44,219 bases of DNA, from assembly GCA_937899995.1 (NCBI GenBank), contig CALCCK010000017.1:1-44219 (forward strand), read 5' to 3'. This document shows, piece by piece, positions 37,006 to 43,999 of this stretch. Numbering within the stretch: the stretch's first letter is position 1; every line of letters starts with the position of its first letter. Both the position numbers and the translations under genes were made by a program. This DNA comes from an uncultured Gammaproteobacteria bacterium (GTDB taxonomy: Bacteria > Pseudomonadota > Gammaproteobacteria > PS1 > Pseudothioglobaceae). The notes beneath the pieces were generated by a model. It saw nothing but the letters and a program-made list of their open reading frames with translations, did no database searches and had not been told where the DNA came from.

Positions 37006-37082
37006 GGTTATGTAGCTCAGCTGGTTAGAGCACAGCATTCATAATGCTGGGGTCGGTGGTTCAAGTCCACCTATAACCACCA
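37006..37082 (+). tRNA. Elongator tRNA-Met(CAT), likely integration site
   Basis: A 77-nt cloverleaf with CCA: acceptor GGTTATG, anticodon arm AGCATTCATAATGCT with CAT, T arm GGTGGTTCAAGTCCACC. Its 1-72 pair is a normal G-C, as in elongator Met. Phage-type debris and a switch from core to accessory genes start directly at its 3' end. Confidence 0.95.
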
Positions 37083-37396: not shown

Positions 37397-37590
37397 CTAA
37401 ATATGGTATAATTACAACTTGGTTTTTATATAAATTGATCACAAGACCAAAATAAACAACTCTAAAGTTGCATCTATCTGTGAAGTTTCTGATTTATCAC
37501 GAGCCGACTGTAGGCTTTTGATATGTTCGTTTAAATGCAAATCATTAAGTTATTATCCAATATCCTAGAAGAATAGTGGAGAGTTTTCTG
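37397..37590. other. Island-edge intergenic sequence
   Basis: AT-rich sequence with no intact gene. It carries the unassigned minus-strand open piece at 37439-37549 and leads into the short ORF and ribosome site in front of the aminotransferase gene. A promoter for the operon must lie here, but I see no consensus match. Confidence 0.4.
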
Positions 37591-37656
37591 ATGACGATTT
37601 ATTTATTTAAAAAAGTGGCTGACGCATTAGTAAGAATCGGAGACTTAAAATTATAA
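37591..37656 (+). CDS. Possible 21-residue leader ORF ahead of the aminotransferase operon
   Basis: ATG ACG ATT... encodes MTIYLFKKVADALVRIGDLKL. Its TAA stop overlaps the AAGGAG ribosome site of the next gene (37655-37660), an arrangement that would couple the two. It may be a leader peptide, or the tail of a lost upstream gene. No Shine-Dalgarno of its own is clear (GGAGAG lies 8-14 bp upstream). Confidence 0.3.
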   Translation: MTIYLFKKVADALVRIGDLKL

Positions 37657-37669
37657 GGAGTATAAAAGA

Positions 37670-38896
37670 GTGAAGCAACATTTATTATTTACACCCGGTC
37701 CAGTCAATGTAGTTCAGAATGTAAGAGAGGCTATTTGTAAACAAGAAATTTGTCATCGTGAAATCGATTTTGAATATTTGTTACAAAGTATTGAAAATAA
37801 ATTACTCACACTCTTCGAGATAAAGAATAGAGCGGATTATCGAGCGGTAGTCATTACCGGCTCTGGAACTGCCGCCAATGAATCAATGTTGTCTTCAGTT
37901 GTTGCTGGGAAGAATATTCTTATTCTGTCTAATGGCGAATTTGGCGAAAGACTACACAACATATCTAAGATTCATAATGAAAATACTTTTTTACTGGAAT
38001 TTAACTGGGGAGAAGAACTAAGCCTGAAAAAAATTAAAGATTTTTTGCAGATACAGAAGATTGATATCATTGCCATGGTTCACCATGAAACCAGTTCTGG
38101 CATGTTAAATCCTTTGGAAAAAATCGGAAAACTTGCAAAATCACATGGTGCGATATTTATTGTCGACTGTGTAAGCAGTGCAGGCGCAGAAGTAATTGAT
38201 CTGGAAAAATGCAACATTACATTTTGTTCAAGTTCGAGTTCAAAGGCAATTGGCTCTTATCCTGGATTATCTTTTGTAGTTGGTGAAACTCAAGAGTTTG
38301 AGAAATTAAAGAATCTTCCCATTAAATCTATGTATCTAAATTTGTATAAATTTTATGACTTTATAAAAACTTTTTCTCAGACACCTAATACACCAGCGGT
38401 GCACTCATTCTATGCTCTAAATCAAGCGCTATCCAATATACTCAACGAAGGTATTCAAAATCGCTATGCTAATCTGAGAGATAAAGCCAATAAGTTAAGA
38501 CAAGGCATGCTGAGTCTAGGGCTTAAGTTTGTAATTAATCAGAAAGATATGTGCTCGATATTAACCACTGTTTATACTCCATCGTATATCGATGTCGGTG
38601 TTTTGCGTCAGAAATTGCGCGAAAAATCTATTATTATCTACGAGGGAAAGGGTTGCTTTAAGAATCGTGCTTTTCAGGTTGGAAATATAGGTGACTTGTC
38701 TTTTACTGATATCCAATATTTTTTGGATTCACTGAAGAAGGTATTGGATAGTTTTAAGCCGACTGGAGAAATACTACCTATTATTGAACTGGTTAGGACG
38801 TTAAGTGTTGTTGGAATCAGCAGTCAAATCCAAAAACCCACTCCTGAAATTGAAAAAATTAGTACCAATATTCTGATATCCAAAGCAACATTATGA
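37670..38896 (+). CDS. phnW: PhnW-like class V aminotransferase (2-aminoethylphosphonate-pyruvate transaminase family)
   Basis: A PLP-dependent transaminase; PhnW interconverts 2-aminoethylphosphonate plus pyruvate with phosphonoacetaldehyde plus alanine. 408 residues from a GTG start with AAGGAG 9 bp upstream. PhnW-type blocks in order: LLFTPGPVNVVQNVREA, VITGSGTAANES, IAMVHHETSSGMLNPLEKIG, IVDCVSSAGAEVIDL (PLP Asp), SSSSSKAIGSYPGLSFVVG (Schiff-base Lys), SMYLNLYKFYDF and YEGKGCFKN/FQVGNIGDLS. A C-terminal extension of about 35 residues is not typical. The Lys region differs from the usual SANKCIQG, so the substrate may differ. It overlaps the next gene by 4 bp. Confidence 0.75.
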   Translation: MKQHLLFTPGPVNVVQNVREAICKQEICHREIDFEYLLQSIENKLLTLFEIKNRADYRAVVITGSGTAANESMLSSVVAGKNILILSNGEFGERLHNISKIHNENTFLLEFNWGEELSLKKIKDFLQIQKIDIIAMVHHETSSGMLNPLEKIGKLAKSHGAIFIVDCVSSAGAEVIDLEKCNITFCSSSSSKAIGSYPGLSFVVGETQEFEKLKNLPIKSMYLNLYKFYDFIKTFSQTPNTPAVHSFYALNQALSNILNEGIQNRYANLRDKANKLRQGMLSLGLKFVINQKDMCSILTTVYTPSYIDVGVLRQKLREKSIIIYEGKGCFKNRAFQVGNIGDLSFTDIQYFLDSLKKVLDSFKPTGEILPIIELVRTLSVVGISSQIQKPTPEIEKISTNILISKATL

Positions 38897-39669
38897 ATGA
38901 AAAACTGACATGCTTATGGGCGACGAAAACAAAAGATGATGAATGGTGGTCTTCTTTTGTCACAGCACCTCTAGCTATTGCACTTAATTATTTCGTTGTC
39001 GATATTAAATGGTTAACGCCCAACAAAATCACTCTTATTTCTTTTCTTACCGCTATTGTTTCAGCTCTGTTTATTATTTTGGGTGGCGCTCAGAACTTTA
39101 TTATTGCCGCAGTTTTGATACATTTAAGCCATGTTTTTGATTGCATGGATGGGCAGATGGCGCGGTATCGAAACACCACCTCACAATTAGGTGGTTATTA
39201 CGATAAGCTAACCGACCAAATACAGGTGATACTCTGGTTTGGTGCAATAGGTTATGCAGCTTACAACCAGTCTCATAATGTTCTACCGATATTTTTGACG
39301 CTAATTGGCATTGCCTTCTACTCGCTTCGTGGCTATTTAAAGTATTTGATGATTTACACCAAAATGTCACAGGACAGTCAATACTTTGAAGTGCTTTCCA
39401 AAAAAGAATCGATGACAAAAAAAGAAGATACTGCAGGTCTTAAATTTGGTTTTTCAGCAAACCTGAAGTGGTTTATAGCCGAGCAGCGAAAAATACTTTT
39501 ATTTAATGAAGGGGTTTTCATTTTCATGCTATCACTCGCACTTGTACTTGATGTACTCACGCCCATGCTTTGGGTGTTTGCATTAAGTCAGCTTTATTTA
39601 GGGCTTATGCGTGGCTGGCAAAGAAGTGTTCAAATAAAAAGTAATGTGGTAATCATTATCAACAAGTAA
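38893..39669 (+). CDS. CDP-alcohol phosphatidyltransferase family membrane protein
   Basis: Transfers a phospho- or phosphono-alcohol from a CDP-linked donor, releasing CMP. 258 residues, several membrane helices. The signature D-x2-DG-x2-AR-x8-G-x3-D-x3-D is complete: DCMDGQMARYRNTTSQLGGY followed by YDKLTD (about residues 77-102). ATG overlaps the aminotransferase stop (ATGA). With the cytidylyltransferase 36 bp downstream, it suggests CDP activation of an amino-alcohol or aminophosphonate and its transfer to a lipid or glycan. The substrate cannot be told from sequence. Confidence 0.8.
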   Translation: MNEKLTCLWATKTKDDEWWSSFVTAPLAIALNYFVVDIKWLTPNKITLISFLTAIVSALFIILGGAQNFIIAAVLIHLSHVFDCMDGQMARYRNTTSQLGGYYDKLTDQIQVILWFGAIGYAAYNQSHNVLPIFLTLIGIAFYSLRGYLKYLMIYTKMSQDSQYFEVLSKKESMTKKEDTAGLKFGFSANLKWFIAEQRKILLFNEGVFIFMLSLALVLDVLTPMLWVFALSQLYLGLMRGWQRSVQIKSNVVIIINK

Positions 39670-39704
39670 AGAATTTGGTGTGGATGCAGTCACTACAATA
39701 ATTA

Positions 39705-40472
39705 GTGACAAGTGTGATTTATTTTCATGAGGATCTAAAAATTAAAGCAATTATTTTAGCCGCTGGTGTAGGCTCAAGAATCAGACCATTAACAGATAAC
39801 TGCCCTAAAAGTCTGTTAAAAATAAATGGTAAAACCATTCTTGAAATGATGTTGTCACATATTCAGGCGTGTGGAATTAATGAAGTTGTCTTTGTCTTGG
39901 GCTACTTACAGGATCAGATAAAAGATTATGTGAAAACACAATTTCCTGATTTAATCGTCCAATTTATAACGAATGAAAAATATGAAGTAACGAATACTGG
40001 TTATTCTTTAATGTTAACCAAAGACTTTGTTCAGGATTCAACCTTTATTAAATTTGATGCCGATGTTGTTTTTGATATTAATATACTAATAAACCTTATT
40101 GCTTCTGAATATGATAATTGTCTATGTATCGACAAAAATATTAATCTTGATGCAGAAGAGATAAAAGTCATTATTAAAGATGATAATAGAGTGGTTAAAG
40201 CCAGTAAAACAGTTAATCCTGTAGATGCAATTGGTGAATCAATAGGTATTGAAAAGATCAGCGGTGAAACAGCGCGTACTTTATTTAATGAGCTGGAGCT
40301 AATGATGAAAGATGATCAATACCATCAGGAATATTATGAAGCAGCTTATGAAAGACTCATTGAAAAAGATGTCCCTTTTCATGCATTAGATATTTCAGGA
40401 CTGAAATGGACTGAAATTGACACCCAAGAAGATTTTATGCTTGCAGAAAATATTTTTAGTCAGAGTACTTAG
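39705..40472 (+). CDS. Sugar-nucleotidyltransferase-fold cytidylyltransferase (LicC/PntC-like)
   Basis: Likely CTP:phosphocholine or CTP:2-aminoethylphosphonate cytidylyltransferase. About 255 residues, with KAIILAAGVGSRIRPLTDNCPKS at the nucleotide site, FIKFDADVVFD (metal Asp) and a C-terminal YYEAAYERLIEKD plus GLKWTEIDTQEDFMLAE, which resembles LicC- and PntC-type enzymes. Start uncertain: GTG 39705 is used here. GAGG at 39729-39732 points to a rare ATT at 39741 just before the KAIILAAG block. Last gene of the three-gene unit. Confidence 0.75.
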   Translation: MTSVIYFHEDLKIKAIILAAGVGSRIRPLTDNCPKSLLKINGKTILEMMLSHIQACGINEVVFVLGYLQDQIKDYVKTQFPDLIVQFITNEKYEVTNTGYSLMLTKDFVQDSTFIKFDADVVFDINILINLIASEYDNCLCIDKNINLDAEEIKVIIKDDNRVVKASKTVNPVDAIGESIGIEKISGETARTLFNELELMMKDDQYHQEYYEAAYERLIEKDVPFHALDISGLKWTEIDTQEDFMLAENIFSQST

Positions 40473-40783
40473 AATCAAGACATACTGGTAATTTCAATGA
40501 GCTGAGGTTGACTAGACTGGTAATGTTTATATAGAGATGTTAAGGTATAAGCTGTAGATGTTTATAACTGTAACACAGGTGATAGTAAAACATATTAAGT
40601 TCTTTATTAGCAAGTAAACAGATAAATTATAGTATCTAAATAATCAATACTTTCGCATATTTACACAGACTCCGAAGATACAGGGAGGCTCATTGCTCTT
40701 GGCTAAGTAGTAATAAACTCTCCCTCACACATGAGATGGGGTTTGGACTCTGACTAGGCTCTAATTGAAATATAATCTTTAGT
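40473..40783. other. Intergenic stretch
   Basis: AT-rich, no intact ORF on either strand. It contains the first CTCCCTCACACA copy (40720-40731) of a repeat found again behind the nuclease gene, and a weak TATAAT (40770-40775) before the ATG at 40784. Confidence 0.5.
40720..40731 (+). repeat. Flanking direct repeat, left copy
   Basis: CTCCCTCACACA is identical to 41855-41866. About 27-45 bp after each copy a second similar stretch follows (ACTAGGCTCTAATTGAAAT and ACTAGGTTCAAATTGATAT). The pair brackets the zinc-ribbon nuclease gene. Confidence 0.5.
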
Positions 40784-41848
40784 ATGAAACTAACCTCCTA
40801 CCCACACTTAGTTAAGGAATGGCATCCAACTATGAATGGAGACCTGACTCCTGAAGATATTACTCATGGAAGCAAAAAGAAAGTCTGGTGGTTGTGTTCT
40901 AAGGGGCATAGTTTTGACTCAATGCCCAATAGCAGAACAAGCAGGAAGACCGGGTGTCCCTATTGTTCAGGAAGAAGAGTAGGTGAAGACAACAACTTAC
41001 TTCATTTATTTCCTGAAATTGCTAAAGAATAGCATCCAACTAAAAATGGTGAGCTAACTACTAATCAGGTTACTTCTCAAAGTAGCAAGAAGGTCTGGTG
41101 GCTTTGCCCCAAAGGTCATAGTCATGAGTCAGTTGTAAAACATAGAACGCTCGATAAGAGTAAATGTCCTCAATGCTCTAATCAGTCCTCTGAGCCTGAA
41201 ATAAGAATCCTTGCTGAGTTGAAATGGTTTTTTAACGAAGTAAATAGTCGTTATAAAATTGATGGTGTTGAGGTTGATATTTTCCTGCCAAAATTTAATG
41301 TGGGTATTGAGTATGATGGCAAGTACTGGCATAGCGATAAAGAGGATAGCGATTTAAAGAAGAATAAGTTTTTACTATCTCAAGAGATTAACCTTATAAG
41401 AGTTAGACAACACCCTCTTAAATCATTATCTGGAAATGATGTGGTTGTTAATATTATTCGCTCATTAGAGAAAGCGGATTTGGACGAGATACTTAAAAAG
41501 ATTCACCCATTTGTAGATAACACCACCAAGGAGAAAATTAACACTTACCTTGTTAAATCATCCTTTGTTAATGATGAGTTATTTAAAGTTTATAGAAGTT
41601 ATTTCCCATCACCATTTCCTGAAAAATCTCTTCTAATTACACACCCTTTACTCAGCAAGGATTGGGATTATGATAAGAACTATCCATTAAAGCCAGAAAA
41701 CTTTTCGTATGGAAGTGGAAATAAGATATGGTGGTTGTGTTCCAAAGGTCATAGCTACAAAAGGTCACTAAACACCAGAACCTCTCATGGCACTGGCTGT
41801 CCTTATTGTTCAGGAAGGAGAACACTTAACTACGACCTTTGGAAGTAA
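40784..41848 (+). pseudogene. Zinc-ribbon (DUF4379-like)/PD-(D/E)XK nuclease-like protein interrupted by an amber codon
   Basis: One frame of 354 codons is broken only by TAG at 41030-41032 (codon 83). Repeat 1 reads VKEWHPTMNGDLTPED, and the same place in repeat 2 reads AKE-stop-HPTKNGELTT, so the stop replaces a Trp (TGG to TAG). Order: zinc ribbon 1 (about 28-72: WWLCSKGH...CPYCSGRR), ribbon 2 (about 103-137: WWLCPKGH...CPQCS), a nuclease-like core (about 145-215: VEVDIFLPKFNVGIEYDGKY, D165, E176, K180), and ribbon 3 (about 305-350). Such proteins are common in phages and mobile elements; targets unknown. It could be dead, or translated as two pieces. Confidence 0.75.
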
Positions 41849-41854
41849 TATAAC

Positions 41855-41866
41855 CTCCCTCACACA
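41855..41866 (+). repeat. Flanking direct repeat, right copy
   Basis: CTCCCTCACACA, 6 bp after the nuclease stop codon; identical to 40720-40731. The following ACTAGGTTCAAATTGATAT (from about 41905) resembles the sequence after the left copy. Confidence 0.5.
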
Positions 41867-42883: not shown

Positions 42884-43297
42884 CTATTCATTTTGAGCGA
42901 TTACATTTTTCTTTATTTGAGTGGACGAAGTCCGGGGATGATATTGAATTTGTACAACTTTTTTTCCTTGTGAATGAAAGTATTCTTCCACATCCTGATT
43001 ATGAGGCTTTCTACCCCAGTCTTCCCCAATAACAAAAATATCTGCTTTAACTTGTTGACAAATAGTAAGGTAATCTAATTCATGATACGGGATTACGATA
43101 TCCACACAACGAAGTGCTTGTAGCATCTCAATACGTTGCTCGAGCGGAATAATAGGCGTATTAGGCTTATATAGTTTGACAACCTCATCAGAGGCAATGC
43201 CAACAGCAACAGTATCACCTAATGATGCGCAATGTTCCAATAAGGCAAGATGCCCCACATGTAATAAATCAAATGTTCCTACTGTATATACTACCAT
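42884..43297 (-). CDS. HxGH-type cytidylyltransferase (glycerol-3-phosphate or phosphoethanolamine cytidylyltransferase-like)
   Basis: Activates a phosphorylated alcohol with CTP. 137 residues, the size of TagD. Motifs: VGTFDLLHVGHLALLEHC (HxGH), EQRIEMLQALRCVDIVIPY, DIFVIGEDW(G) and RTSSTQIKK (RTxGISTT-like). Substrate (glycerol-3-phosphate, phosphoethanolamine or other) cannot be fixed. Follows the CDP-alcohol phosphatidyltransferase gene at 43346 on the same strand by 48 bp, making an activation-plus-transfer pair. Confidence 0.82.
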   Translation of the reverse strand: MVVYTVGTFDLLHVGHLALLEHCASLGDTVAVGIASDEVVKLYKPNTPIIPLEQRIEMLQALRCVDIVIPYHELDYLTICQQVKADIFVIGEDWGRKPHNQDVEEYFHSQGKKVVQIQYHPRTSSTQIKKNVIAQNE

Positions 43298-43345: not shown

Positions 43346-43999
43346 TTATATGAGTTTCCAACTGTAGATAACTGTAATACTGAGTGTATAAAAAGAGAGG
43401 ATAAAAATATTGATAGGCTTGCCAGAAAGCTTTGGTGTTTTGATTTGCGAAACATTTAAAGCTGCAAGTCCTAAAATACTAATATATAGAATAATTAAAA
43501 ATACTTCTCCAGTAAAAATTCCTTCAAATAAAAATATAAAAACAAGCACTATATTATTGCTATCAAGAGCCAGACCTGTGTATTTCGATCCACCAGAAAG
43601 ACCATAAGTATTGAAATAACTCAATCGAAGAGCGCTGGCAGAAATGATAATAAACGCCCCGAATAAGAACAAAGGCTCAAATTTTCCATAACTTAAAAGA
43701 AGAATAGCTGGAGATACTCCATAGTTTACAATATCTATTAATGAATCAAGCTGACCCCCAAAAAAACCTTGTTCACTGGTTCTTCCTTTCATTCTTCGTG
43801 CAACTAATCCATCTGCCCAGTCAAATGCAACAGCCCAAATCATGCCAATCATAGCTGCGTAATAATTTTCTAAAATACTAAAATAAATAGCTAATACTGT
43901 ACAGGCCAGCCCTAAAAGTGACAATAGATTAGGAACATCCTTCACGTAGGAAAGAATAGTGGGTTGTATTACTTGAGATTCTGACTTATTTTCAATCAT
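43346..43999 (-). CDS. CDP-alcohol phosphatidyltransferase (PssA-like)
   Basis: 217 residues with about six membrane helices. The signature is DWADGLVARRMKGRTSEQGF followed by FGGQLDSLID (about 61-89). It has the D-x2-DG-x2-AR start and the G-x3-D-x3-D end, but 12 residues between AR and G where 8-9 are usual. The QLDSLID ending recalls CDP-DAG-serine phosphatidyltransferases. The insertion is an oddity to check. Starts 24 bp after the truncated tsf; transcription may come from the tsf side. Confidence 0.82.
   Translation of the reverse strand: MIENKSESQVIQPTILSYVKDVPNLLSLLGLACTVLAIYFSILENYYAAMIGMIWAVAFDWADGLVARRMKGRTSEQGFFGGQLDSLIDIVNYGVSPAILLLSYGKFEPLFLFGAFIIISASALRLSYFNTYGLSGGSKYTGLALDSNNIVLVFIFLFEGIFTGEVFLIILYISILGLAALNVSQIKTPKLSGKPINIFILSFYTLSITVIYSWKLI

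Follow-up and report, generated by a model that had tools for sequence, protein, structure and literature searches.

The window, by which we mean the entire stretch of DNA analyzed (44,219 nucleotides), carries an operon of 3 intact genes on the forward strand, designated here AT, PT, and CyT (Table 1). The AT protein matched the Pfam family Aminotran_5 with 81.8 bits, above the curated cut-off; PT matched CDP-OH_P_transf (PF01066) with 59.7 bits against a cut-off of 22; and CyT matched both NTP_transferase (45.4 bits) and NTP_transf_3 (38.7 bits) above their curated cut-offs. A preliminary description of this DNA had recognized the 3 enzyme classes and their arrangement as one tight operon, and the open reading frames, the Pfam matches, and the full PT motif agree with that description. 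The 4-bp overlap that it reported between AT and PT was likewise found (ATGA), but the gap between PT and CyT is 35 bp rather than 36.

Table 1. Features of the cassette and its surroundings; positions are those of the window unless a locus is named
Feature	Position	Strand	Length	Remark
tRNA-Met (CAT)	37006..37082	+		directly upstream of the cassette-bearing region
Leader	37398..37669	+	~270 bp	forms the left portion of the mobile unit; L031, L032, L033 (from 37419), and L034 share it along with the cassette
AT	37670..38896	+	408 aa	class V PLP aminotransferase of the AEP-transaminase (PhnW/AepZ) family
PT	38893..39669	+	258 aa	CDP-alcohol phosphatidyltransferase
CyT	39705..40472	+	255 aa	LicC/PntC-superfamily nucleotidyltransferase
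23-bp direct repeat	40709..40731, 41844..41866			flanks the DUF4379 genes
DUF4379 zinc-finger genes	40784..41032, 41219..41848
Cytidylyltransferase-like gene	42884..43297	-		RfaE-domain-II/glycerol-3-phosphate-cytidylyltransferase-like
CDP-alcohol transferase gene	43346..43999	-		PssA/archaetidylserine-synthase-like
P-loop ATPase/kinase-like gene	L032:10004-10573, L033:10027-10587			between PT and CyT

Nucleotide similarity to other cassettes begins approximately 270 bp 5' of AT and stops just past CyT, at about 40480, and these limits outline a mobile unit of about 37398-40480. The leader probably holds expression signals. A promoter scan found sites no more numerous than in shuffles, and a terminator scan returned 2 weak sites, each within the AT gene. 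The conserved unit starts approximately 315 bp downstream of the tRNA-Met gene, which may have been the entry site of a genomic island.

Several features lie to the right of the unit. The DUF4379 genes look like one endonuclease-like gene split by an in-frame stop, and a sequence related to this region is found close to the cassette in L033 (7191-7293). Farther downstream, the cytidylyltransferase-like gene scored 94 bits against a cut-off of 181.5, and its protein has relatives with 78-85% identity in 10 other Thioglobaceae genomes from several genera. Because of these relatives, this gene and the CDP-alcohol transferase gene beside it are probably not part of the cassette.

The cassette was found at 7 other places, namely in Thioglobaceae, in other Gamma- and Alphaproteobacteria, and on a Sulfitobacter plasmid. 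There were 2 other carriers (G033 and G006) among 83 Thioglobaceae genomes. A scan of genome contigs yielded 6 loci, comprising G033 and G006 again (L031 and L033), other Gammaproteobacteria (L032, L034, and L036), and an Alphaproteobacteria MAG (L035). A plasmid collection added Sulfitobacter sp. SK012 from marine sediment, with the same gene order and the same 4-bp overlap. One carrier MAG is titled ALOHA Candidatus Thioglobus autotrophicus. The order AT-PT-CyT was present wherever CyT was covered (the L035 record ends inside CyT), and in L032 and L033 an additional gene separates PT from CyT. This P-loop gene was considered as a head-group kinase; it had no Pfam match in either locus and no NCBIfam match in L033, and homologues with 54% identity, annotated as AAA ATPases, are present on Priestia plasmids, so it is probably a hitchhiker. 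Carriage of the cassette by phages was also considered and was not supported, as neither an alignment of AT against viral contigs nor a search of phage records with CyT gave a relative.

Flanking genes differed at each locus long enough to judge, L031 holding little beyond the cassette. Identity of AT to the window was 93% in L031, 89% in L032, 88% in L033, 86% in L034, 72% in L036, 70% in L035, and 60% in L107. InfB identity to the window genome was 66% (partial), 45%, 73%, 51%, 54%, and 48% for L031, L032, L033, L034, L036, and L035, respectively. Given a different setting each time and an identity far above the housekeeping level, the cassette is, as judged from sequence, a unit that has moved horizontally between unrelated marine bacteria. 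Most cassette gene comparisons gave a dN/dS of 0.14-0.45, indicating purifying selection; AT against L031 gave 0.69, but the synonymous divergence there was only 0.05 (0.18 for AT against L033). The order and frames kept in 7 other records, together with purifying selection in most comparisons, indicate that the cassette open reading frames are real genes.

In Nostoc, the same trio occurs with pepM and ppd in a phosphonolipid cluster (PMC5987646), so that the cassette resembles the latter half of this pathway. If it were the tail of a phosphonolipid pathway, AT would make 2-aminoethylphosphonate (AEP) from phosphonoacetaldehyde, CyT would form CMP-AEP, and PT would form the AEP lipid; the phosphonoacetaldehyde would come from PEP mutase (PepM) and phosphonopyruvate decarboxylase (Ppd) that are unrecognized or missing, or from another organism. 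The phosphonate reading of the preliminary description ran along these lines, with a lipid or a glycan as acceptor and with AEP import as an alternative, and what stands of it is the likeness: the gene set is that of the pepM-ppd-AEPT-NTPT-CDP-APT clusters without pepM and ppd (PMC5987646). In a class sample of 369 genomes, AT had a match in 22, the window's own genome among them, and 16 of these 22 had PepM. Most of the regions retrieved around AEPTs of the class also encoded a relative of CyT or PepM close by, and the nearest AT relatives sit beside PepM.

The carriers gave a different result. The window's own genome (1.24 Mb, 99.15% complete) had no PEP mutase with 2 models and no Ppd over the cut-off, which runs counter to the suggestion that these genes lie elsewhere in it. 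No PepM (TIGR02320) was over the cut-off in the 6 other carrier genomes, some of them incomplete, or in the Sulfitobacter strain, where the search covered the plasmid. Likewise, Ppd (TIGR03297) was over the cut-off in 0 of 7 carrier genomes, some incomplete, the best score being 42 against 312 bits. As controls, the PepM search gave positives in 2 of 83 Thioglobaceae genomes and in 18 of 274 genomes of the class; the 2 positive Thioglobaceae genomes do not carry the cassette. Matches to PepM in G006 and G033 were rejected, being below threshold and in methylcitrate-cycle-like neighborhoods.

Some related genes were noted in these and other genomes. G006 has a separate PhnW (586 bits with TIGR02326, above the cut-off) that adjoins aldehyde-dehydrogenase-like and PhnA-like genes in an apparent AEP-degradation cluster (L059:3456-7289). 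Two Thioglobaceae genomes without the cassette, G001 (L057/L037) and G057 (L058/L038), encode a true PEP mutase whose N-terminal stretch is cytidylyltransferase-like, and in G057 this gene is within a surface-glycan-like gene cluster. Plasmid pSINME02 of Sinorhizobium meliloti AK83 (L130:3687-7505) has aepX (PepM) followed by genes for a class I/II aminotransferase, a phosphocholine-type cytidylyltransferase, a CDP-alcohol transferase, and a formyltransferase.

AEP could also be salvaged rather than made. In that case, AEP imported from a host or from seawater would be activated by CyT and loaded onto a lipid by PT, with AT in a side role such as nitrogen salvage or balance. The sea and the lipids of marine invertebrates are rich in AEP (PMC3909097), and the window's own genome lacks PepM, Ppd, and, in our search, the C-P lyase gene phnJ. 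The same genome had no PhnW, however, and the cassette has no transporter. AT is as conserved as CyT and is always first in the operon, yet it would oppose CyT; salvage accounts for CyT and PT, but not for a conserved AT. These data make AEP salvage improbable. As a general explanation, the more specific proposal that a mollusc host provides the AEP is unlikely, since the sediment Sulfitobacter plasmid and the ALOHA MAG are, on present evidence, not host-bound, and the conserved AT would be left without a job.

The best curated model for AT was TIGR03301 (PhnW-AepZ), at 298.8 bits against a cut-off of 360.8. The 2 other cassette ATs scored were also below it (L107, 284.6 bits; L036, 292.4 bits), in contrast to positive controls of 386.9 bits for a PepM-linked AEPT and 511.6 bits for a PhnW. 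In the tree, AT fell inside the branch of AEPT, PhnW, and the cassette, separate from the alanine-glyoxylate transaminases (100/100), which is consistent with a phosphonolipid role and rules out AT as an alanine-glyoxylate transaminase. The cassette ATs formed a single clade (100/100) on a long stem; this clade was joined to PhnW with moderate support (87/94), at a point where the tool warned that long branches meet. The only other AT-like match in the window's own genome was 27% identical. An AlphaFold model of AT from a shallow alignment had a pLDDT of 48 and was too poor for use.

The PLP lysine (Lys192) and the PLP-pairing Asp166 were kept in all 8 cassette ATs. In contrast, all 8 cassette ATs have Gln at position 336 (38675-38677), where all 23 AEPT/PhnW sequences have Arg. 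We take this Arg to be the equivalent of Arg340 of Salmonella PhnW. The latter is the substrate-anion (substrate-binding) arginine of class V transaminases, and by homology Gln336 may mark a functional change. Glu90 and Glu325 were gained, and Gln336, Glu90, and Glu325 together form a signature shared by all 8 cassette ATs and by none of the 23 AEPT/PhnW sequences. Thus, the assignment of AT to the PhnW family was right as to family, but not as to a member that reaches the AEP-transaminase cut-offs or keeps the family arginine.

Arg25, Lys35, and Lys168 of CyT are the equivalents of Arg15, Lys25, and Lys153 of PntC (the GXG(T/S)R...PK motif and the catalytic Lys), and all 3 were invariant in the 7 cassette CyTs aligned. 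Asp118/Asp120 and Asp239 were also conserved. The column of the AEP-contacting Glu104 of PntC holds Asp118 in CyT, and most PepM-linked PntCs of the class also have Asp there; the column for the AEP-contacting Glu196 is uncertain by one residue. The best PDB match was LicC of Streptococcus pneumoniae (1JYK/1JYL, 5e-22), followed by the Treponema structures 6PD1/6PD2. In the tree, the cassette CyTs grouped together in one clade (100/95) that lay apart from the two PntC clades, with the CyT of Prevotella F0039 as sister (98/89); support for the deeper division of the tree into two halves was weak (53/18). The description of CyT as LicC/PntC-like is therefore upheld for the superfamily and the catalytic residues but not for membership in PntC, and these results do not assign CyT to the choline or inositol type either. 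The PntC/LicC catalytic residues and the family of AT fit the tail of a phosphonolipid pathway, but the missing PepM and Ppd, the low AT scores, the lost arginine, and the position of CyT outside the PntC clades count against it, and we regard it as the main rival explanation, although an unlikely one.

The motif D83-x2-D86-G-x2-A-R-x8-G-x3-D104-x3-D108 is complete in PT (residues 83-108, about 39139-39216), and its residues were invariant in all 7 PTs aligned. PT nevertheless varies more than the other two cassette genes. In L036, it was 29% identical to that of the window, compared to 72% for AT and 78% for CyT, and even this exchanged PT kept the motif. In L033, the synonymous divergence of PT was 1.29 compared to 0.18 for AT, and the identity profile dropped within PT. 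Exchange of PT while AT and CyT stay suggests that the latter two work as a single functional core, which would supply the donor in the form of an activated head group, and that PT sets the acceptor to which this head group goes.

Instead of a lipid, the acceptor of PT might be soluble or a glycan, as in a phosphodiester of the inositol-phosphate or osmolyte type or in a surface glycan. The best matches of PT and CyT, which were weak, included di-myo-inositol-phosphate enzymes and archaetidylinositol phosphate synthase; however, the scores were far under the cut-offs of these families, and an aminotransferase has no place in a pathway of the inositol-phosphate type. A eukaryotic cholinephosphotransferase, which has a lipid acceptor, is a solved relative of PT equally near as the inositol-type ones. 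We consider a soluble or glycan acceptor very improbable.

Taken together, we favor, with a probability of roughly 0.5, a self-contained, horizontally moved lipid-headgroup cassette whose head group is an amino-alkyl phosphate more likely than a phosphonate. AT, as a PLP enzyme, would convert a precursor found in all hosts into a small amino compound, since a cassette kept in unrelated hosts should use a precursor common to them. Rather than AEP, its product would most likely be an amino-alkyl phosphate derived from a carbonyl-bearing central metabolite, or alternatively an amino alcohol phosphorylated later by a host kinase. CyT would then couple the amino-alkyl phosphate to CMP using CTP, giving a CDP derivative, and the membrane protein PT would transfer the amino-alkyl-phosph(on)ate onto a lipid alcohol with release of CMP. 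The sequence in which the three enzymes act, the choice of a lipid over a glycan as acceptor, and the choice of phosphate over phosphonate in the head group are predictions. The complete PT motif, the intact catalytic residues of CyT, and the PLP lysine of AT support this lipid-headgroup model. Further support comes from the joint transfer of the genes into unrelated hosts, the exchange of PT beside a stable AT and CyT, the negative PepM and Ppd searches of the carriers, the AT signature, and the kinship of CyT to the one in the Prevotella operon. Against an amino-alkyl phosphate, the cassette fixes no kinase and no phosphorylated precursor, and all AT relatives in the AEPT/PhnW branch whose role is known work with AEP, the nearest of them sitting beside PepM. 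More tentatively, the head group could be one not yet described, with AT turned from an AEP transaminase to a non-phosphonate substrate through loss of the Arg and gain of two acidic residues, and with PT exchange between carriers placing the head group on other lipid acceptors.

If the lipid-headgroup model is true, a 3-gene unit carries head-group synthesis across marine bacterial classes, making surface or lipid chemistry exchangeable; such exchange might, speculatively, answer phage, grazers, or hosts. PhnW-like, PntC-like, and CDP-alcohol-transferase genes alone are not evidence for phosphonate synthesis, a caution that bears on surveys of the marine phosphorus redox cycle.

The phosphonolipid clusters of Nostoc and Burkholderia (PMC5987646) and the pnt clusters (PMC6697681) have, like the cassette, the AT family, a PF12804/PF00483 cytidylyltransferase, and a CDP-alcohol transferase in one operon. 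The cassette departs from the known phosphonolipid clusters as a conserved and mobile unit of 3 genes, in carriers without PepM or Ppd found, and with AT and CyT clades of its own. The PntC-AEPT fusion of Treponema denticola (6PD1/6PD2), which was the top PDB match of AT, also has the same two enzyme classes adjoining; however, the cassette is distant in sequence, its genes are separate, it has no linked PepM, and it has Gln where Treponema has Arg. LicC of S. pneumoniae shares the catalytic motif of CyT, but choline uptake or kinase genes are absent beside CyT, and sequence cannot resolve the substrate pocket. Two further systems, with no PepM in the stretches seen, resemble the cassette in joining a PLP enzyme, a related CyT, and a head-group transferase. 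The Prevotella F0039 operon (L128:6946-9544) has a HisC/CobD-like gene, CyT, and a LicD-like gene, and on a Rahnella sikkimica plasmid (L129:6980-9458) a CDP-alcohol transferase comes after a CobD-like/CyT fusion. Their PLP enzymes are of class I/II, unlike the class V enzyme of the cassette, the Prevotella transferase is LicD-like, and the roles are putative. These systems suggest that a PLP enzyme, a CyT, and a transferase form a recurring logic that is not tied to PepM.
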